Source: an uncultured Clostridia bacterium
GTDB lineage: Bacteria; Bacillota; Clostridia; Christensenellales; UBA1242
NCBI GenBank assembly: GCA_944377455.1
Contig: CALWEZ010000041.1
Span: 1-38,637, forward strand
Reading direction: 5' to 3'
Length of the DNA: 38,637 bases
In this document: one piece after another, positions 1 to 34,507 of the stretch
How the letters are laid out: every line of letters begins with the position of its first letter
Position numbering within the stretch: the stretch's first letter is position 1
The notes under the pieces: model-generated
What the model saw: the letters and a program-made list of their open reading frames with translations, nothing else
What the model was told of the DNA's origin: nothing
Database searches by the model: none
Translations under genes and position numbers: made by a program

Positions 1-489
1 AAATTAAAAGAAGCGGTTGCAAGTTATAACAAAATTCCTGTTTCTCAAATAAATTTGTCGCTTAAAGGAAGTGCTGAATTATTTTTTGACCCAGATTTTA
101 AAAATTACAGAGAAATCGTTTATTCCCTAAAGAGATATCCTAGAAGATTTGTTAAAGTTATGGCTTCTCTTACATCTCAAGAAAACAACTTAAAAATATC
201 AATTTCTCCATATGATATTTGTGACTTTTTAATGGATAATGAAAACCTTTTTTCAACAGATGGCAGTTTAAATAATAATTTACAAATTGAAAATGGTTTT
301 GGTGAGAGTGGGGGAAAATGTGTGTTACGCACCAAAATTTCCTTTGCTCCCGAATGTATAGAAAATGTGTCCATCAACTTTCATCCTGATCAACTTGCTT
401 ATTTTGATTATGAAGATAAGGAAAGTTATGAAGTTTTAAGGCCTGCTCTTATTGACTATTTAGAAAAGCAATCAAAAGAAAAAGAATAA
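1..489 (+). CDS. C-terminal part of an unknown protein, cut by the left window edge
   Basis: The frame is open from base 1, so the TTG at 55 is probably internal and the true start lies outside the window. About 162 residues are visible. They are soluble, with no membrane segment, signal peptide or catalytic motif that I recognise, and end in a charged Lys/Glu tail. An internal stretch after GGKCVLRTKISF looks like beta structure. A terminator hairpin follows 40 bases after the stop, so this is the last gene of its transcript. I do not recognise the family; the upstream part would be needed to place it. Confidence 0.6.
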   Translation, partial: KLKEAVASYNKIPVSQINLSLKGSAELFFDPDFKNYREIVYSLKRYPRRFVKVMASLTSQENNLKISISPYDICDFLMDNENLFSTDGSLNNNLQIENGFGESGGKCVLRTKISFAPECIENVSINFHPDQLAYFDYEDKESYEVLRPALIDYLEKQSKEKE

Positions 490-626: not shown

Positions 627-1793
627 TTAATTCTTTTCTTTTTCAATATCAAAATTTTTGTTGATGTAGTCAATGGCAACGGTCAAGGTTTTGTCGGTTT
701 TGTTTTCAATATCTTTTGCTGTCAATGGCACCTCAATGTCAGGCTTAATCGCGCCCGGAGTTTTGAACACATCACTGAAATCGAAAAACTTTTCAGTGTA
801 ACTGACAATTAGATCATCACTTAGTTCAATCTTGCCAGAACTTTGCCCGAAACGAATATTCCCCTGCCCAAGCGGTTGACCGATGAGCGTTGTGTTTAGA
901 ATTGTTTTTGCGTAGCGCACCGCCCAAGTCCCCGAAGAAAAAACTCTGTTGTCTGTCAGTGTCACGCCGGTAATGTTGTTCTCGTTTAGATATCTTAACA
1001 GCGGTTTAATTATCTCCGAATCGCCACCCGGATTTCCGCGCACATCAAAGATATAGTGTTTTATGTTTTTCGTTTCGATTGTATTTTCGACTTCTTCAAA
1101 AAAATTTTCAATTTCACTTTTAAAATTCGCATCGCAAGTTAGATAGTTTATCTTTATGAAATTTGGCCCAATAACCGAATAACTATATGGTTTCTCATTT
1201 GGCAAGTCATATGGTGGAAAACATTTCTTAAAGTCAAACCATTCTTGCGTGATGTCGACCTTTAATTTTTGCCCATTTTTTAGTTCGATTGAAGAATAGT
1301 CGATGCCTAAAATATCATAAAGTGTGGTCCTGTTCAAGTAATTACATAGTTGCACCGAAAGCCACTCGCTTGTTTCATAACAAATATACTCGCTCATAGC
1401 CTTACATACTTCATTGACAGGCTTACCACCAATTTTTACCACTTCCAAAAGTTTTCCATCACAGATGGCATAAACTTTGTTATTGATATGCAAAAGGTGC
1501 TGACTTAAATATTTTCTTTTTTCACTTTCGCCTTTGTATCTCACACTTAGGTGCGCATTATGAAACATGGCGCACATCTTCACTAGATACCCATAAAACT
1601 TTTCCGTGGGAACATTGTCAATATTGCCTAAACCCGCAACATACTCATCAACACACTTGTTGATTTCGATTTGTTTATCAATAAATTCTTCGCCCATGTT
1701 TCTGCTCTGCAAAAGCGAAAGCGATTTCTCTTTAATGATGTTTGCACTTTGAACCAACTGTTCAGTCTGCGTTAAACCCCTTAAATCTTCCAT
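627..1793 (-). CDS. S41 family (tricorn/CtpA-like) serine peptidase
   Basis: This 388-residue protein has the S41 core: IFDVRGNPGG near residues 248-256, the nucleophile loop VFSSGTW (Ser286/Ser287) and a GQPLGQG strand near 305-311. In C-terminal processing peptidases the last motif carries the catalytic lysine (GKG); here it is Gln310. A possible alternative base is His81 in NAHLSV, which resembles the D-x-H-T/S motif of tricorn-like S41B members. No PDZ domain, signal peptide or membrane helix is visible, so it is probably cytoplasmic, unlike CtpA. There is no ribosome binding site. A consensus promoter lies so close to the ATG that the mRNA should be leaderless. Family assignment is firm; activity and substrate are unknown. 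Confidence 0.85.
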   Translation of the reverse strand: MEDLRGLTQTEQLVQSANIIKEKSLSLLQSRNMGEEFIDKQIEINKCVDEYVAGLGNIDNVPTEKFYGYLVKMCAMFHNAHLSVRYKGESEKRKYLSQHLLHINNKVYAICDGKLLEVVKIGGKPVNEVCKAMSEYICYETSEWLSVQLCNYLNRTTLYDILGIDYSSIELKNGQKLKVDITQEWFDFKKCFPPYDLPNEKPYSYSVIGPNFIKINYLTCDANFKSEIENFFEEVENTIETKNIKHYIFDVRGNPGGDSEIIKPLLRYLNENNITGVTLTDNRVFSSGTWAVRYAKTILNTTLIGQPLGQGNIRFGQSSGKIELSDDLIVSYTEKFFDFSDVFKTPGAIKPDIEVPLTAKDIENKTDKTLTVAIDYINKNFDIEKEKN

Positions 1794-1799
1794 AAATTT

Positions 1800-1828
1800 A
1801 TTATATCACAATACATTTTGTATGTCAA
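1800..1828 (-). promoter_or_regulatory. Consensus SigA promoter of the S41 peptidase, predicted leaderless
   Basis: On the minus strand TTGACA (1828-1823), a 17-base spacer and TATAAT (1805-1800) match the consensus at every position. Only six bases (1799-1794) separate the -10 box from the ATG at 1793, so transcription should begin at or next to the start codon. Confidence 0.85.
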
Positions 1829-8391: not shown

Positions 8392-10116
8392 TTAAATATT
8401 TCGCGACGAGTGGCAAGTTAGTAGTATTATTTGATATTTTTGCGATAAACTTTTCAAAATCTGCCTTGCAATAAGTAAATTTTTGTCGTCTAAGTTCACA
8501 AAAGGGTCGTCTAAAATTATGAAAGGTTTTTCTTTATCAAACACCAAATCGATGAGTGCAAATCGCTTGCAAATCTCTGTTAGGTCTTGCACGCCAGCAC
8601 TCAAATATCCTTCTTCCAGCATATTTTGTTTTAAGTGGACATCCAAATTTCCGTCCACAACAAGTTCGTCACTTGTTATAAATTTTTTATAAAACTCGTC
8701 AAACTTTTGCTGAACAGGCTGAACATATCTCGACGATAAATTCTCAGAAGAGGTCAAAAGAAAGTTTTGCGTCGTCTCTAAAAGTTTAATTTTATTGTTT
8801 AACTCTTCGCTCTTTTCTGTGTCCGCTTGCAGTTTGTCATCGCACTCAGTTATCGGCAAACTGTCTAATTCGTTTTGATAATGTTTTAGGTCGTTCTCTC
8901 TTTCAACAACACCTCTTTGAGCGTCATTGATTTTGCTGACAACTTCTTCATAGTAGTTGACAAAACTCCGCGGTGAACCACCAAAAAGCAAATTAATTTG
9001 ATTATCAATCTTCTTAATTTCTTCTTCTTTTTGCTTTATTTTTTCAGTTTTTTCCGCATTTTTATCAAAAAATTCACTTTTTTTCAATTTATTTTCATTT
9101 TTTAAGCGAATTTTTTGCTTTTTTTGTTTTAAGAAGATAACGAGCATTACAATTCCTAAAACAAATAACACTGGACAAGTCACCACGAAAGCGATAAAAT
9201 CAAGCGCAAAAAATAGCCCTATCGACGCCACTGACAACACAAAGAAAAGGATAGAAAAAACTAATGCCGTCTTTTTAACCTTAGGCGTTTCTTCTTTTTC
9301 TTCCACTTGCGGTTCAGCATCTTCGACTTCTTTTAAAGTTTCATTAAGATACATCATGGTCGCGCTTTTTTCAGCCGACAGTTTTTCATATTCCTTTTGT
9401 TTAGCATCCAACTCTTCTTTAATATGTTGATAAGATTTTAATTTCTCCTCATATTCAGCAAGATTATTTTTTGCGATGCTAATTTTATTTGTTAGCGCAT
9501 TTTCTTTTAATTGCAACTCTCTGAATCTCGCTTTGTCACTTTCAAGGTTCAAAGTTTTAAGTTCGCTTTTCAGTTCTCTTATCTTTTGCTTAATTTTCTC
9601 AACAGCCTTAGATAGCGCATCAACATCATCGCCATAAAGTTTGCCTGTTGAGAGCGACGCCTTTATGTCGTCATTGATTTCGCTTGGCAGTTCCTTTTGC
9701 CCAAAGAATATTGTCGCGTCAAACGTTTCCTTTCCAACGCCGAAAAGTTCGCGCCCAATGTTTGAAGAATATGCGTCGCTCTTCAAGTTGTTTTCAGCGT
9801 TATATAGATAAAACTCATCAAGCGTGGTGGTTCGATTGAAAACACGCCTAATCTTAAACACACCCTTTTCTGAAACAAACACAAGCTCTCCACCAAACTT
9901 TCCGCCCTCAAAAGGCTGATATTTGGTGCGGTCGGTGAGTTTACTATTTTTTCTCGCATTTGCGCCAAGTCCATAAAACATCGCTTTGATAAAAGAGGCA
10001 AGCGTGGTTTTCCCATAGCCATTTTTCTCGCAAATTGAGGTTATATTTTCCTTAAAGGACACATCAACATTTTTTAATTTTCCAAACGCGTCTATGTGGC
10101 AAGATATCAATTTCAT
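8392..10116 (-). CDS. YhaN-like SMC/Rad50-type AAA ATPase with a membrane-spanning middle
   Basis: An ABC-type ATPase head split by a coiled coil, the partner of the nuclease directly upstream. The Walker A loop is EKNGYGKTT (residues 30-38), with FFGQKELPSEIND near 137-149 (Q-loop region), coiled coil from about 165 to 265, two adjacent hydrophobic helices near 283-305 and 307-329, a second coiled coil to about 450, a signature-like LSAGVQDLTEICKRFAL and Walker B IILDDPFVNLDD. Length is 574 residues, against roughly 960 for B. subtilis YhaN as I recall it, so the arms are short. The ATG overlaps the stop of the upstream gene in an ATGA, so the two are translationally coupled. Two membrane helices in the hinge place it at the membrane. 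Confidence 0.85.
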   Translation of the reverse strand: MKLISCHIDAFGKLKNVDVSFKENITSICEKNGYGKTTLASFIKAMFYGLGANARKNSKLTDRTKYQPFEGGKFGGELVFVSEKGVFKIRRVFNRTTTLDEFYLYNAENNLKSDAYSSNIGRELFGVGKETFDATIFFGQKELPSEINDDIKASLSTGKLYGDDVDALSKAVEKIKQKIRELKSELKTLNLESDKARFRELQLKENALTNKISIAKNNLAEYEEKLKSYQHIKEELDAKQKEYEKLSAEKSATMMYLNETLKEVEDAEPQVEEKEETPKVKKTALVFSILFFVLSVASIGLFFALDFIAFVVTCPVLFVLGIVMLVIFLKQKKQKIRLKNENKLKKSEFFDKNAEKTEKIKQKEEEIKKIDNQINLLFGGSPRSFVNYYEEVVSKINDAQRGVVERENDLKHYQNELDSLPITECDDKLQADTEKSEELNNKIKLLETTQNFLLTSSENLSSRYVQPVQQKFDEFYKKFITSDELVVDGNLDVHLKQNMLEEGYLSAGVQDLTEICKRFALIDLVFDKEKPFIILDDPFVNLDDKNLLIARQILKSLSQKYQIILLTCHSSRNI

Positions 10117-11207
10117 AGCAGTATATCCTCCCCTTTAAGCGCCGATAGGCCAATGTTCGCCACCTTCTCTTTTTCTAAATCGGAGAGATTGCTGTCGAAC
10201 ACTTCCTTCAAAAACTCGCTTTTTAAAGAAAGTTTGTCGTCTTTGTAACTCTCAAAATCATAAAGCGTGGTTGTTTCGTCAACTATGTCTAAATAGAAAA
10301 ACTTGCCATATAGGTTTTGCTTAATTAATTCCACTTGCACAGGGTTATCTTCGGTATGTTTGCCCTTTAATATAATCTTCACAAGGTCAGTTTTAGAAAG
10401 TTTTGAAGCAATTTCTTCCACCTTCTGCATAACTTGAAAATGATTGACATCTGGCGTGATTGTAAGTTCAATCTTCCTATAATCATACTTGCTGAAAGGG
10501 ATAAACTCGCGTTTAAATTTTTGTCCGTCTATATCTAAAAGATAAAAGCCCTTTTTCTCTCCGATTTTCACAGCATCGTTAAAACTTTTGCCTTCCAAAC
10601 ATCCGCTATACTGCCAAATTCCACGATTGTCAATCTTGCCATCCTGCCTTAAATGGATGTGCCCAAGTGCTAGATAGTCAATATTTCTCCCTTGCAAATT
10701 GTTTGTGTAGACGCCGTTAAAATATTCGTCAGTCGCGTTGATAGGTTGATGAAGCATCAAAATATTGAACCTATTTTTATCAAAATCAATGGAAGTATAG
10801 AAAAGATTATGCACATATCTAGATAGCGACGCACCACCTACCACAACATTTTCGCCTATATCGACCTTAGAAAAATTCTCTTTAAAAAGGATAAAATTTT
10901 TTGGCATTTCGTCGTCTGCAAAAGGGCAAAAGTTGGCGTCATGATTACCCCAAATATAGAAAAATTTGATGTTAGGATGACTTAACACCGCCTTTTTAAA
11001 CAAATTTACAGAATTTTTACTCGGCGAAGGCACATCAAAGGTATCTCCACATAGAAGAATTGCACTCACGCCGTTTGTTTCAGCATACTGCACCAAATCA
11101 AAAAAGTTTTGAAGAAGTTGATTTCTCTTCAATTTTCTCTCATCCGCGCCCAGCCCTTTCAATTCTTTAATATCAATATGAATATCCGCACAATGAATTA
11201 TTTTCAT
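10113..11207 (-). CDS. YhaO-like metallophosphoesterase (SbcD/Mre11-type nuclease)
   Basis: All calcineurin-type phosphoesterase motifs are present: CADIHID (D-x-H), LLCGDTFD (GD), YIWGNHD (GNHD), LHQP and LALGHIH (GHxH). Two metals bound by these residues would cut DNA ends, as in Mre11/SbcD, with the YhaN-like ATPase as partner. At 364 residues it is close to the family's usual size. There is no ribosome binding site; an extended -10 box lies seven bases before the ATG, so the mRNA is predicted to be leaderless, and the second gene is then reached by the ATGA overlap. In Bacillus the neighbouring yhaM nuclease belongs to the set, but it is not here. Confidence 0.88.
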   Translation of the reverse strand: MKIIHCADIHIDIKELKGLGADERKLKRNQLLQNFFDLVQYAETNGVSAILLCGDTFDVPSPSKNSVNLFKKAVLSHPNIKFFYIWGNHDANFCPFADDEMPKNFILFKENFSKVDIGENVVVGGASLSRYVHNLFYTSIDFDKNRFNILMLHQPINATDEYFNGVYTNNLQGRNIDYLALGHIHLRQDGKIDNRGIWQYSGCLEGKSFNDAVKIGEKKGFYLLDIDGQKFKREFIPFSKYDYRKIELTITPDVNHFQVMQKVEEIASKLSKTDLVKIILKGKHTEDNPVQVELIKQNLYGKFFYLDIVDETTTLYDFESYKDDKLSLKSEFLKEVFDSNLSDLEKEKVANIGLSALKGEDILL

Positions 11208-11214
11208 AGAATAT

Positions 11215-11242
11215 ATTATATCAAAAACAAAACTAAAAGCAA
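11215..11242 (-). promoter_or_regulatory. Extended -10 promoter of the YhaO/YhaN pair, predicted leaderless
   Basis: Minus strand TGATATAAT gives an extended -10 (TATAAT at 11220-11215) with a weak -35 TTGCTT (11242-11237) at 16 bp. Seven bases separate it from the ATG at 11207, leaving no room for a ribosome binding site. Confidence 0.72.
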
Positions 11243-14464: not shown

Positions 14465-16426
14465 TTAATCCACAACTTCATCATAGGTAAAGCCATTTTT
14501 ACATAAAAAGGTATGCATCTTTAATTTCTTTGCTGGCAATATATCTGTTTTGTAACTGTTGCCTATAACCATAACCTCGTCAGGCTCTAATTTGTTTTTC
14601 TCTAAAATCTCTCTATAAAGATGTTCTTTGGTTATGTCATTCTCAGGAAAATCATTTGTCAAAATATCTTCAAAAAAGGTGTGGTCAATTTTGTAATATT
14701 CCATGAATGCTCTAATGTCGGATTTGGTGGAGTTGGACACGATATACATTTTTCCTCCAAGCCTTTGACATTGTTTACGAAACTTTTTAAGTTCGCTTTT
14801 TGGTATTGCCTCACCCTTTTTCCCTTCTTCATTCAAAACAATGCGCTTTCCGTATCTCCACTCATTATACGCTTTTGAACTACCTTCCGTCTTTAAAAAA
14901 AGTTTTACAATATCTTGCCCAGAGTCAATACGCTTCGTACCTAATACATTTTGCAATAATTCCGTAAATTCTTTGTCGCTATAATCACTAAAATGATTTC
15001 TTACCCACTCATTTCTCTCTTTGTTCCACTGCTTCCAACTGACATTATAGTAAAGTGTGTCATCAAAGTCGAAGATAAAGCACTTAATCTTGTTTGAAAA
15101 TAAATTCGGATCCTTTTGAATGTTACTAAGCCATTTCCCGTGCTTGTAAATTATTAGATAAAGTACTGTAAATATGATATCAGGAAGCGCAATCATAAAA
15201 TAGACAAAATAGGTATTATCTGGAAGATAGTTTGTAATAAAACACAACATCACACACCAAATCGTATAAAACACACTGCAACATATCATCACCAAATTTT
15301 CCTTTCCGCCAAGCCTTAAAAGATAGGATGACATAGTCCACGAAAAGAAGCGGAAGAGATGAATAAGCACATAGCATGGTAAAACATAAAACATAGCTAA
15401 AAAATATTCATCATTCACACCAATTGCGATTGGGTAGATAAGTGCAAGCGAAAGAATAGCATAGAAAATATAAAGAACAAGCACTCCTAAAAGCAAGTTT
15501 TTGGCGTGATATTTTGCTTTTTCAAAATCATCTTTCCCAAGCGCTCTTGTAATTTCAATGGCACAGATAACTCTATAAGCCATAAAGAAACAATTTAAAA
15601 TATCAAGCACGCTTTCGAGATAAGAATAGGTGTTGAAAAGCATATCGCTTGTGCGAAGAAGATATATGCTTGTGGCAAAATACCCCACCTCCCAAACCAC
15701 TTCGGCAAAAAAGTTTGAAAAAAGGATTGTCCACTGCTTTTTGGTGAATGAGATAGGCACAAATTTAAAAACATTAATATTAAAGCCACTGCGTTTTAAA
15801 AGCACAACATAGTAAAGAACAAAAAGTAGCACCCCGCTTAAAACATAAACTATGGCGATATAATTAAGCATGAATGAGCCGATAAAATACAGAAGCAAAA
15901 AGCCGATAATGACAAAGATATAACTTAGCGATGTGGAGAGAAAAGATAATTTAAAAATATTCAACTGGTCTAAAGTGTCTTCTAAATATCCTGACAGGCA
16001 CGAGAAGAAGAAGTAGGCACACATGATGTAATAGAAGGTATAGTCAGTCGGCACGAAACTTGTTATCGTTTCCATAAAAAATCTAGGAAAAATCGCAAGT
16101 ATCGCCGTCATAACACTTGCCAAAATCAAAATCAACTCAAAGCCCATTTTTACAGATTTTTCCACTCTGCTTTTTATGGAGATGTTTTGATTAACCATGA
16201 TGTTTGTGCCTTGACTGACACCAAAAGCAATCATTGAAGCAAAGTAGTTGAGCGACAAAAAGGCGTTGAGATAGGTTAGTTCGTAAACTCCAAGCAAATT
16301 AGAAATAATTGAGATAATAGCGGACAAAATTGCCACCATAATACCCTTGATAAGCAAAAACTTACCCTTTTTAAGAGTGCCGAAAAAATATTTAAAAAAT
16401 CCCTTTGTTTTTGCGACCGCTGTCAT
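14465..16426 (-). CDS. MATE-like multidrug/flippase-type transporter fused to a HAD-superfamily hydrolase
   Basis: Residues 1 to about 435 form twelve or so hydrophobic helices in the MATE/MOP-flippase pattern, including the early SQGTNIMVNQN segment that recalls the Q-G-x-x-x-x-x-Q element of MATE proteins. From residue 449 a soluble HAD domain follows: FIFDFDDTLYYN (nucleophile Asp453, acid Asp455, Thr457), MYIVSNSTKSD for motif II and MVIGNSYKTD near 619-628, where the usual GDS is GNS. Total length is 653 residues. The frame is continuous with no sign of a sequencing join. There is no ribosome binding site; a promoter six bases from the ATG predicts a leaderless mRNA. The fusion suggests transport coupled to removal of a phosphate group, but no substrate can be named. 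Confidence 0.82.
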   Translation of the reverse strand: MTAVAKTKGFFKYFFGTLKKGKFLLIKGIMVAILSAIISIISNLLGVYELTYLNAFLSLNYFASMIAFGVSQGTNIMVNQNISIKSRVEKSVKMGFELILILASVMTAILAIFPRFFMETITSFVPTDYTFYYIMCAYFFFSCLSGYLEDTLDQLNIFKLSFLSTSLSYIFVIIGFLLLYFIGSFMLNYIAIVYVLSGVLLFVLYYVVLLKRSGFNINVFKFVPISFTKKQWTILFSNFFAEVVWEVGYFATSIYLLRTSDMLFNTYSYLESVLDILNCFFMAYRVICAIEITRALGKDDFEKAKYHAKNLLLGVLVLYIFYAILSLALIYPIAIGVNDEYFLAMFYVLPCYVLIHLFRFFSWTMSSYLLRLGGKENLVMICCSVFYTIWCVMLCFITNYLPDNTYFVYFMIALPDIIFTVLYLIIYKHGKWLSNIQKDPNLFSNKIKCFIFDFDDTLYYNVSWKQWNKERNEWVRNHFSDYSDKEFTELLQNVLGTKRIDSGQDIVKLFLKTEGSSKAYNEWRYGKRIVLNEEGKKGEAIPKSELKKFRKQCQRLGGKMYIVSNSTKSDIRAFMEYYKIDHTFFEDILTNDFPENDITKEHLYREILEKNKLEPDEVMVIGNSYKTDILPAKKLKMHTFLCKNGFTYDEVVD

Positions 16427-16432
16427 TTTTTT

Positions 16433-16461
16433 ATCTTAACATAACAAAAATTTTAAGTCAA
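16433..16461 (-). promoter_or_regulatory. Promoter of the MATE-HAD gene, predicted leaderless
   Basis: Minus strand TTGACT (16461-16456), exactly 17 bases, TAAGAT (16438-16433), then six A residues and the ATG at 16426. No Shine-Dalgarno sequence fits between them. Confidence 0.75.
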
Positions 16462-22008: not shown

Positions 22009-22014
22009 TATAAT
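22009..22014 (+). promoter_or_regulatory. -10 box of the SH3-like protein gene, predicted leaderless
   Basis: TATAAT at 22009-22014 is followed by six bases and the ATG at 22021. No convincing -35 box is visible and no Shine-Dalgarno sequence is present. Confidence 0.55.
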
Positions 22015-22020
22015 TTAAGC

Positions 22021-22788
22021 ATGAAAAAAATTATCTTTCTTCTAATATTATCTCTCATATTCCCAATCAGCCCAAACTTTGCAAGCGCCGAAGTGGATGG
22101 CGATTTCTATGGCAAAATAGCGTCCGAAAATGTCCAATTTCTCTCATCGCCAAACTCAAATTCCGCATTGTTTACTCTGCCCTATTCCTACTTTGTCAAG
22201 ATAAACGACGTCTTAGACGATTTTTATGAAGTGGTGTATAAGGATTTAACTGGCTATGTTGCCAAAAGCGACATTAGGCTTATGGAAGGAGTGCCAAACA
22301 CGCCATATCTAAACCTAAACTTTTCCATTTTCACACCTTACTATCTCTATGAACTGCCAAACACCAACTCGAGCGCCTACTGCGAACTTGATGACACGCA
22401 ATCATTCTCGTATTACGGCACGCTCTCTGGCGAAGAGGTCAGTGACAGAAGCGATGTTTGGTATTACGCCTCAGTCACCATTTCAGGAACGACCTATCAC
22501 GGCTATATCTACTCTGAAATAACCAACACCTTGCCTGAAATCACGATAAACAGCGAAGTTTTCACAGAGGTCGACGAAGGCGCGCTTTTTAACTCCACAC
22601 CTGAATTTAACTCGCTATCCACAGGCACAAAGGTCTTGCTTATTGTGGCAATCACCGTGCCGAGCGTGTTCATTCTCTACTTTTTAATCAAGCCAAACAA
22701 ACTTACTAAAAGCAAGGCAAAACCTGAGAAGAAAGTCAGAAAAATTCATCATGGCGACTATTTCGAGTTCGACGACAGCGACTTATAA
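22021..22788 (+). CDS. Secreted SH3-like protein with a C-terminal membrane anchor
   Basis: 255 residues: signal peptide 1-23 ending ASA, then two beta-rich segments with the look of bacterial SH3 domains (VQFLSSPNSNSALFTLPY ... YEVVYKDLTGYVAKSDI near residues 38-90; YLYELPNTNSSAYCELDD ... YYGTLSGEEV ... WYYASVTISG near 108-165). A membrane helix follows near 204-224 and a short basic cytoplasmic tail. It is thus a type I surface protein, perhaps binding the cell wall. It lies between two minus-strand phage-like genes and is transcribed the opposite way. A -10 box six bases before the ATG suggests a leaderless mRNA. Confidence 0.7.
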   Translation: MKKIIFLLILSLIFPISPNFASAEVDGDFYGKIASENVQFLSSPNSNSALFTLPYSYFVKINDVLDDFYEVVYKDLTGYVAKSDIRLMEGVPNTPYLNLNFSIFTPYYLYELPNTNSSAYCELDDTQSFSYYGTLSGEEVSDRSDVWYYASVTISGTTYHGYIYSEITNTLPEITINSEVFTEVDEGALFNSTPEFNSLSTGTKVLLIVAITVPSVFILYFLIKPNKLTKSKAKPEKKVRKIHHGDYFEFDDSDL

Positions 22789-22865: not shown

Positions 22866-23363
22866 TTATAGCGCAATCTTTTTTATCTCCACCTCGTCAG
22901 TTTTAGAGGATTGAATGTCGTAGTAATAATTTAAAATCCACTTTTCACTTTTAAGTTTGTTTTGAAGGCTAAGGCTGTTATAACCCATATTCAACAACTT
23001 TTTTGTGAAAGATGTTTCCGCCTTGTCCAATCTTCTAAACACCGTTCTCAAACCCAATCCCTTTTCAAAAGCAATATCTTTAAATTTCATGCCTTCAATA
23101 TAACGGCAGATAAGGATGTCCGCCTCATTTTGCCCAATCTTTGTAAGGATGTCCTCAACGAGCAATTTCAAATTGATAAGCGTCACCTTTCTCTCGCCTA
23201 GTTCAATCAATTTGTTCGAGGTCGATAAAACATCATTCCCTTCCAACGAAAAATGATAGGAATTTAAAGCGGTCTTAAGCACAATTCTGTCGATTGCGTC
23301 CGAAACTGTCTCCAAATGCCTATAAACTCCAAGCAATGTTTTAGCCCAAATATTTTCTTTCAT
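22866..23363 (-). CDS. Sigma-r4-like helix-turn-helix regulator of phage type
   Basis: 165 residues. The first half is helical; residues about 85-140 (EADILICRYIEGMKFKDIAF, LGLRTVFRRLDKAETSF) have the layout of a sigma-70 region 4 helix-turn-helix (acid-rich first helix, R-Y-I-E-G-M-x-x-x-I-A, second recognition helix), as in ArpU/RinA-type late regulators of phages of Gram-positive bacteria. The longest frame starts at 23384, but AAAGGAG a few bases before ATG 23363 fixes the start. It has its own promoter and is read toward the terminase gene. The C-terminal 45 residues are unlike anything I know. The family call rests on pattern only. Confidence 0.62.
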   Translation of the reverse strand: MKENIWAKTLLGVYRHLETVSDAIDRIVLKTALNSYHFSLEGNDVLSTSNKLIELGERKVTLINLKLLVEDILTKIGQNEADILICRYIEGMKFKDIAFEKGLGLRTVFRRLDKAETSFTKKLLNMGYNSLSLQNKLKSEKWILNYYYDIQSSKTDEVEIKKIAL

Positions 23364-23389
23364 AACACTCTCCTTTGTAACCATGAAAA

Positions 23390-23419
23390 ATTATAAATAA
23401 TAAAAAATGGCAAAGTCAA
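23390..23419 (-). promoter_or_regulatory. Promoter of the r4-like regulator
   Basis: Minus strand TTGACT (23419-23414), 18 bases, TATAAT (23395-23390). An imperfect hairpin, AAATGGCA / TGCCATTT (around 23405-23433), with T runs both ways overlaps the -35 and may block read-through from upstream. Confidence 0.68.
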
Positions 23420-23764: not shown

Positions 23765-23794
23765 TTGTTATTTACATAAAAAATTTGTTATAAT
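23765..23794 (+). promoter_or_regulatory. Promoter of the eight-helix protein gene, predicted leaderless
   Basis: TTGTTA (23765-23770), 18 bases, TATAAT (23789-23794), then six bases to the ATG at 23801. No Shine-Dalgarno sequence. Confidence 0.7.
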
Positions 23795-23800
23795 ATATAT

Positions 23801-24583
23801 ATGAATAAAAGTGGAAAGCAAATAAGTAAAACAAGACTCGCATTTTTTATAATTTTCAGCATTCTCATTTTGGCATGCGCTGTCTTTTCTTTAATCTTGC
23901 CAGAACTTGCCATTGACACATCAGCATGGGCATGGCTAAGCGAAAGTTTGATTAAAATGGTGGCAATAGGGCTTGTCTTTCTCATGAGCCTATGTCTATT
24001 AAAAATCAATAAAAAAAGCATATTCTTAACAATTTCCCTAATCGCTTATTGCGTTGCCGCCTACTTTTTGTTCAGTTTAAGTGACGCCGAAAACCTAGAC
24101 CAAATCACATTGGCGCAAGACATCATGCTCTACTCCATGCTCGCCCACCAACTTGTGCTTGCCGTCTACTCTGTTGTCATCTCAAAAGGCGCGGGACTAA
24201 AGGTGTTAAACATCGCCGTTCGCGTTGGACTAAGTTTAATCGCCTACTTTTTGCTGACAGAGTATTTGCCAGAATATTTCGACCTAAGAAATTCGCTTTT
24301 CATAATTTATCTCATCAATTCTTTGGTCACACTTATTTCCTTTAGTTGTTGTTTCAAAAAATATTTCTTAATGATTTTTGGTGTTCTTCTCTCAACCGTT
24401 GGCGCGGTGTTCTACGCCTTCTCGTTTGGCTGGCTCACCCTATTTAACATCACTGGAAACTTTGCCGAATTTGTGACCTCTTTCGATTTTGGTTTCCTAC
24501 TTTCCATAATCGGCATATACCTAATAGGATGCGAAGCGGTTTTCTCAGGCATCTACAAAAACAGCCACCTAACAACGCTGTAA
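23801..24583 (+). CDS. Unknown eight-helix integral membrane protein
   Basis: 260 residues with about eight hydrophobic helices (near 12-32, 43-63, 72-90, 104-125, 135-153, 160-180, 187-210, 225-250), a basic N-terminus (NKSGKQISKTR) and few charges elsewhere. No transport or enzyme motif is visible, and I do not recognise a family. The -10 box six bases before the ATG and the lack of a ribosome binding site predict a leaderless mRNA. Monocistronic, with a terminator at 24691. Confidence 0.65.
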   Translation: MNKSGKQISKTRLAFFIIFSILILACAVFSLILPELAIDTSAWAWLSESLIKMVAIGLVFLMSLCLLKINKKSIFLTISLIAYCVAAYFLFSLSDAENLDQITLAQDIMLYSMLAHQLVLAVYSVVISKGAGLKVLNIAVRVGLSLIAYFLLTEYLPEYFDLRNSLFIIYLINSLVTLISFSCCFKKYFLMIFGVLLSTVGAVFYAFSFGWLTLFNITGNFAEFVTSFDFGFLLSIIGIYLIGCEAVFSGIYKNSHLTTL

Positions 24584-32919: not shown

Positions 32920-34472
<1,553 letters not shown>

Positions 34473-34478
34473 AATGAT

Positions 34479-34507
34479 ATTTTAAAATAATTCACGCAAA
34501 ATGTCAA
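34479..34507 (-). promoter_or_regulatory. SigA promoter of TM2-mnmA, predicted leaderless
   Basis: Minus strand TTGACA (34507-34502), 17 bases, TAAAAT (34484-34479), then six bases to GTG 34472. The rest of the gap to 34804 is AT-rich and holds no gene I can support. Confidence 0.8.

Follow-up and report, generated by a model that had tools for sequence, protein, structure and literature searches.

Layout of six gene starts in the window

The stretch analysed here (the window) is the 38,637-nucleotide contig CALWEZ010000041.1 (contig C41) of an uncultured gut Clostridia bacterium, the source assembly of which comprises 817 kilobases (kb) in 53 contigs and is 77.7% complete. At six gene starts in the window, a promoter -10 box lies only 6 or 7 nucleotides (nt) upstream of the start codon and a clear Shine-Dalgarno (SD) sequence was not found, and these genes are considered below as candidates for leaderless translation. 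The words genus, family and order are used as kinship labels given by the sequence search tool, and the order is one that we take to be Christensenellales. The lineage is AT-rich, with a guanine plus cytosine (GC) content of 0.37 in the window. As judged by the YhaO protein, the nearest named relative is Candidatus Caccovivens faecavium (94% identity), which NCBI taxonomy places in Clostridia; another Clostridia record is 96% identical. The features are as follows.

627..1793, minus strand: coding sequence of an S41-family peptidase, putatively leaderless (Pfam Peptidase_S41, E 3.8e-08)
1791..1828, minus strand: S41 peptidase start; -35 box TTGACA (1823-1828), spacer of 17, -10 box TATAAT (1800-1805), 6 nt, ATG (1791-1793); predicted +1, A
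10113..11207, minus strand: coding sequence of a YhaO/SbcD-like metallophosphoesterase, putatively leaderless (Metallophos, E 1.3e-14)
11205..11220, minus strand: YhaO start; extended -10 box TTTGATATAAT (hexamer 11215-11220), 7 nt, ATG (11205-11207); no good -35 box
16424..16461, minus strand: MATE-HAD start; TTGACT-17-TAAGAT-6-ATG, with a TG extension
22009..22023, plus strand: start of an SH3-like protein; TATAAT-6-ATG, without a -35 box
23765..23803, plus strand: start of an eight-helix membrane protein; TTGTTA-18-TATAAT-6-ATG
34470..34507, minus strand: start of a TM2 protein; TTGACA-17-TAAAAT-6-GTG
23382..23419, minus strand: candidate further case (gene 22866-23384); TTGACT-18-TATAAT-5-ATG, without an SD sequence, spacing counted by eye

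An earlier note made from the window sequence had described the first six of these layouts, and all were recovered at the positions it gave, though the GTG start of the TM2 gene had gone unmentioned and the candidate at 23382..23419 was absent from its list. Its contrast between these starts, which lack a ribosome-binding site, and rpmF, ackA, greA and rnj (names as in that note), which have one, also held, the latter being preceded by AAGGAG or AGGAGG. Upstream of the S41 gene, a 4-base SD match (GTGA) falls inside the -10 region. Given that residues 8-10 form what we take to be the DxH motif, the position of the YhaO start is fixed; its coding sequence overlaps an SD-led YhaN-like gene at 8392-10116. 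Among 28 window starts, exact TATAAT was present at 6 or 7 nt in four, as compared with three for one of the 19 permuted hexamers tried and none for the other 18.

As a separate observation, a palindrome, ATACAAAATGTAT, was recognised by eye in the spacer of the S41 promoter (window 1806-1822) and may be a site for a repressor.

Distance between the -10 box and the start codon

Genes were called with a simple script based on codon usage, which trims some starts and misses genes, the missed genes lengthening intergenic gaps, and TATAAT was counted at each distance upstream of candidate ATGs. The own-genome sample consisted of 20 stretches (297 kb, 281 candidate ATGs), and the genus sample of the own genome with stretches from three relatives (four genomes, 1.1 megabases, 751 called genes). 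The genome-scale distance count that the earlier note had proposed gave a peak at 6 nt, in SD-depleted genes. In the own genome, seven exact matches lie at this distance, as compared with an average of 0.3 for 19 permuted hexamers, none of which reaches a count above 4 anywhere between 0 and 45 nt. The four genus genomes together hold 26 exact matches at 6 nt, whereas each distance of 3-5 or 7-9 nt has 1-5 and no other distance up to 40 has more than 8. With one mismatch allowed, the count at 6 nt is 52, against 5-14 at neighbouring distances; one genome (G021) contributes few of these (2 exact, 4 with one mismatch).

No distance peak was found for GTG and TTG starts in the four genus genomes (11 at 6 nt, 2-19 elsewhere), on which ground a general class of leaderless genes with GUG starts was rejected; a 5'-terminal AUG would appear to be preferred. 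Single candidate leaderless GUG starts, in which exactly 6 nt separate the -10 box from a GTG in frame, were seen in TM2 genes (window 34470-34472 and locus L251), in uvrC of locus L159 and, by eye, in MATE-HAD genes of loci L288-L290.

In 61 whole genomes of the genus, the pattern TTGACA-16..18-TATAAT-6-ATG occurs 171 times (57 of 61 genomes), and a control version with 9 nt before the ATG 46 times (32 of 61). The corresponding counts in 151 genomes of the order are 303 (107 genomes) and 132 (84 genomes). By family, matches at 6 versus 9 nt number 20 versus 2 in the own family (8 genomes), 38 versus 13 in family f15 (8 genomes), 12 versus 10 in f11, 5 versus 8 in f13 and 0 versus 1 in f22. 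Since one sampled f15 genome has 60% GC, AT-richness is not the cause of the excess. Samples from four other families gave small counts of boxes with one mismatch at 6 nt, namely 7 of 215 genes in f15 (the 60% GC genome), 7 of 102 in f25, 6 of 126 in f32, where distance 9 also holds 6, and 0 of 164 in f31. No clear peak was found in 656 genes from 64 outgroup loci (7 each at 6 and 7 nt). When loci L035-L100 were counted without gene calling, exact matches numbered 11 at 6 nt and 9 at 7 nt, against 0-5 at distances 0-5 and 8-12.

Independent promoter and initiation signals

The signals described in this section were evaluated for the 52 sites of the genus sample at distance 6 (from 66 sites at 6 or 7), and played no part in choosing them. 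A -35 box with at most two mismatches is found at a spacer of 17 in 28 of the 52, the remaining spacers between 8 and 29 accounting for 0-6 each, and 25 of the 52 carry the TG extension of the -10 box. The base at -1 is a pyrimidine in 49/52, as compared with 634/1104 candidate ATGs and 351/601 with a box 8-40 nt away (p 3e-9); such a preference would follow if transcription began (+1) at the A of the ATG.

SD matches of at least 4 bases, taken as the best over candidate ATGs, were found for 12/52 genes versus 551/636 other genes, and at single starts for 6/52 versus 223/314 starts with a -10 box 20-40 nt upstream. By the rule used (preceding gene on the opposite strand, or more than 80 nt away), the site appears to be first in its transcription unit in 46/52, versus 472/751 genes overall, both values being inflated by missed genes. 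With the background of ~10 subtracted, 42 of the 751 genes (~5-6%, about one gene in eighteen) are putatively leaderless. Relative to first-in-unit genes, the proportion may be up to a tenth (46/472, background not subtracted).

Conservation of the layout in orthologs

For the S41, eight-helix, TM2, uvrC and HflX genes, several candidate start codons, in frame and close to the aligned N-terminus, were considered at each locus, which leaves some room for chance in their counts. The arrangement TTTGNTATAAT-6/7-ATG upstream of yhaO was kept in 16/16 relatives (L021-L036), with proteins from 96% to 44% identical (spacing by eye); among more distant homologues (L037-L100), a box at 6 or 7 nt was present in 2/64, and in many of the rest a GGAG-like stretch, of which no count was taken, can be seen by eye. 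In S41 genes, exact TATAAT lies exactly 6 nt from the start in 6/6 N-terminally aligned loci (the window gene and five at 47-50% identity) and in 1/11 more distant loci. The eight-helix set comprised 20 loci, one without alignment, and a -10 box with at most one mismatch (mostly one) lies exactly at 6 nt in 16 of the 19 aligned loci including the window gene, down to 25-30% identity. TM2 genes have a box with at most one mismatch at 6 or 7 nt in 17/20 loci including the window gene, followed by ATG in 15 and GTG in two (the window and L251); as the N-terminus varies in length in this family, the box shifts together with the start codon. The layout of the SH3-like gene was kept in both homologues among the loci sampled (L021, 96%, and L024, 66%).

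The own-genome uvrC gene also has the layout. A search of 61 genomes of the order showed a uvrC gene in every one, and among the best 30 loci, which were read, exact TATAAT lies exactly 6 nt from an in-frame start in 14 (13 ATG, 1 GTG), three of which also match 4-5 SD bases. The proteins encoded by these 14 loci, the own-genome one excepted, are 44-50% identical. Six of the remaining loci have an SD-like match of at least 4 bases and 10 have neither feature; uvrC of G004 has the layout with a TATACT box. In other classes of the phylum, the layout was found in 0/29 uvrC loci and an SD-like match of at least 4 bases, a weak criterion, in 28/29, other orders of the same class lying outside this sample. 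For several genes, the alignments suggest that the layout has been held by selection while the proteins diverged to half identity or less.

Functions of the putatively leaderless genes

Pfam scans were based on a second set of 52 better-supported sites, namely the 66 sites at 6 or 7 nt minus 14 that were weak or SD-bearing. Of these, 49 genes were scanned, the omitted ones encoding a 3683-residue protein and two proteins that cross stretch ends. Controls were drawn from 656 genes, and 54 of the first 60 after shuffling were scanned; omitted were TM2, proteins of 33 and 3579 residues, and three more. Only ATG sites lying near a -10 box were kept out of the control pool, which may therefore include leaderless genes of other forms. 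Enzyme names were assigned by us from the Pfam domains, and the function classes were made after the matches had been seen.

DNA repair- or recombination-like proteins make up 10/49 of the set (UvrC twice, AddB, RarA, RecD2, RuvC, RNase HII and others) versus 2/54 controls (p 0.012), one of the two being AddA, the gene for which is located after a leaderless AddB gene. RNA-modifying-like enzymes account for 6/49 (TruA, MnmE, Dus, TlyA and two RluA-type) versus 3/54, and the two classes together for 16/49 versus 5/54 (p 0.006). Ribosomal proteins and transfer RNA (tRNA) synthetases number 0/49 versus 8/54 controls with SmpB counted, or 9 with RimM (p 0.006 or 0.003). Because the classes are post hoc, and because p had been 0.11 and 0.06 with a smaller control used earlier, the functional enrichment is only suggestive. 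The leaderless genes appear to be weighted towards maintenance enzymes of presumably low abundance and membrane proteins specific to the lineage, and away from core translation genes. The view in the earlier note that the layout falls on accessory and membrane functions rather than on housekeeping genes fits the window but is not supported in the wider sample; what stands of it is the absence of ribosomal proteins and tRNA synthetases, whereas repair and RNA-modification enzymes are frequent and ribosome-associated GTPases number three among the 49.

In locus L018:7234-13445, the AddB gene has the leaderless layout and the AddA gene lies directly after it. Hence, one leaderless start may be enough for an operon of repair genes, and the same may hold for YhaO with the YhaN-like gene in the window.

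Proposed mode of initiation and alternatives

Given the one-base peak, the specificity for TATAAT and ATG, the SD depletion, the -35 box at 17, the pyrimidine at -1 and the ortholog spacing, leaderless initiation is very likely as read from these sequences. It is highly probable that sigma-A-type promoters of this gut Clostridia lineage start transcription on the A of the AUG, yielding leaderless messenger RNAs (mRNAs) with no SD sequence. RNA polymerase with the housekeeping sigma factor would begin at that A, and the mRNA would carry neither leader nor SD sequence, so that translation would have to start at the 5'-terminal AUG. This AUG would most likely be bound directly by the 70S ribosome or with the help of initiation factor 2, as for leaderless mRNAs elsewhere, while most other genes of these genomes use an SD sequence. 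Kasugamycin acts more strongly against leadered than against leaderless initiation. For the leaderless interpretation in the earlier note, sequence signals independent of one another and the conservation in orthologs provide strong support.

Several results weigh against this reading. With one mismatch allowed, the 28 window starts give 5 matches, versus 0-5 for permuted hexamers, and the window alone is weak evidence over chance. The one-mismatch histogram of the four genus genomes climbs again to 22-29 at distances 15-19, and as the background estimated from neighbouring distances amounts to ~10 of the 52 sites at 6 nt, single genes are not certain. The uvrC layout is missing in G053 and G016, two of the three genus members in the draw; a distant YhaO homologue of G004 (30%) has a leader; and MATE-HAD orthologs are mixed by eye, with a -10-like box at 6-8 nt before an ATG or GTG in frame in several and an SD leader in L292. 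HflX was rejected as a second order-wide case, since it is leaderless in G004 and G053 but in 1/25 order loci, with 10/25 unresolved. No looser 5' structure was found, the mean minimum free energy of +1..+40 being -2.42 for the 52 leaderless genes and -2.45 for 555 SD genes (p 0.51), nor any clear bias at the second codon, where AAA and GAA lead in leaderless and SD genes alike. On these two comparisons, recruitment through a loosely folded 5' end or through a particular second codon was rejected.

Of the alternatives, the one that survives best is that the promoters are real while most translation comes from longer mRNAs that start upstream and are weakly SD-led or coupled, the proximal start being minor. 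There is a precedent in Clostridium phytofermentans, where potentially leaderless starts (4% of one start class) are reported generally to have a ribosome-binding site and another upstream start (PMC5171806), and 6/52 of the present sites lie at most 80 nt from a same-strand gene. However, 46/52 follow an opposite-strand gene or a gap of more than 80 nt, a count raised by the genes that the caller misses, the spacing is conserved in orthologs, and as the SD sequence is missing at 46/52 starts, a longer mRNA would gain little; this explanation is considered unlikely. It is less probable still, indeed very improbable, that the true start codons lie further downstream and the promoters yield ordinary leadered mRNAs. 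Start choice is uncertain and the caller trims some starts, but the YhaO DxH motif, a signal-peptide-like start of the SH3-like protein and a cysteine pair of TM2 all lie within a few residues of the assigned starts (by eye), and the spacing tracks the start codon in the TM2 and eight-helix families. Least probable of all, and hardly credible as a general account, is chance, in that AT-rich upstream DNA puts TATAAT-like hexamers near many starts and one of 19 permuted hexamers equals the one-mismatch TATAAT count in the window: it is rejected by the permuted hexamers and by a peak confined to one base and one hexamer with none for GTG or TTG, and is opposed by the -35 box at 17, the -1 pyrimidine and ortholog conservation, though it may account for single weak sites.

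As to the functional reason for the leaderless layout, we infer one only tentatively. Rather doubtfully, the genes might form an order-wide conserved regulon of genome- and RNA-maintenance enzymes with uvrC at its core, sustaining low-copy proteins when 30S/SD initiation is impaired under stress or initiation-blocking antibiotics; the Epsilonproteobacteria unit beside uvrC (see below) would then have come about independently under the same kind of selection.

Comparison with known leaderless systems

The remark in the earlier note that leaderless translation is not the textbook mode in Bacillota is fair, but leaderless mRNAs have already been mapped in Streptococcus and C. acetobutylicum and predicted in Lactobacillales and Mycoplasma. 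In S. pyogenes, 8.6% are reported as leaderless, 81% of the cases being common to S. agalactiae (PMC6431027), and in S. pneumoniae, where a reporter test was made on pbp2A, 9% of operons are leaderless, while most coding sequences have a ribosome-binding site (PMC6212727). Streptococci are likewise Bacillota that mix the two kinds of genes, but they belong to the class Bacilli and were mapped experimentally, whereas the present cases are predicted in uncultured Clostridia. In Enterococcus, the reported share is under 1% (PMC7724050). Zheng et al. (2011) predicted leaderless genes in 56/209 Firmicutes genomes, on average 4.2% in the positive ones, concentrated in Lactobacillales and Mycoplasma (PMC3160421). 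Their TA-like signals are the same Pribnow box adjoining the start codon, in the low-GC form TAtAAT (PMC3160421), but the present lineage, unlike the bulk of their cases, is outside both groups.

Within the same class, leaderless transcripts have been reported, besides C. phytofermentans, for C. difficile (15 genes; PMC7438776) and C. acetobutylicum, with 212 such transcripts in RNA sequencing of proteome-detected genes, some condition-dependent (PMC4533764). The Epsilonproteobacteria share a TAnAaT box adjoining the ATG, and repair genes are included among their cases (PMC3847290). The sole gene predicted there as leaderless in every species having it lies directly upstream of uvrC, conservation being otherwise poor (PMC3847290), whereas here uvrC itself is putatively leaderless.

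In the parts of the open-licence literature consulted, no paper was found on leaderless genes in this order or on Caccovivens transcription. Leaderless genes in Bacillota being already known, what is new is the lineage with several well conserved members. Uncultured gut Clostridia with reduced genomes would thus join the bacteria that mix SD and leaderless initiation. Since several genes keep the promoter-to-start spacing across deeply diverged orthologs, sequence comparison can be used to test for which genes leaderless initiation is selected, and whether this has happened more than once in repair genes, uvrC among them. In practice, start codons of this type may be wrongly assigned by gene finders built around an SD sequence.

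Minor observations

Homologues of the MATE-HAD gene in G009:C9 and G055:C1 contain internal stops or are in pieces, which suggests that this gene may be decaying in some species. In a relative, G195 (L346-L354), exact TATAAT matches at 9 nt (6) outnumber those at 6 nt (3). Among the genus matches to the control pattern with 9 nt before the ATG, 12/46 read TATAAT-N6-CGTATG, e.g. G014:C29:1728-1768, G029:C8:51160-51200 and G044:C1:4590-4630; this recurrent element is perhaps one orthologous promoter.
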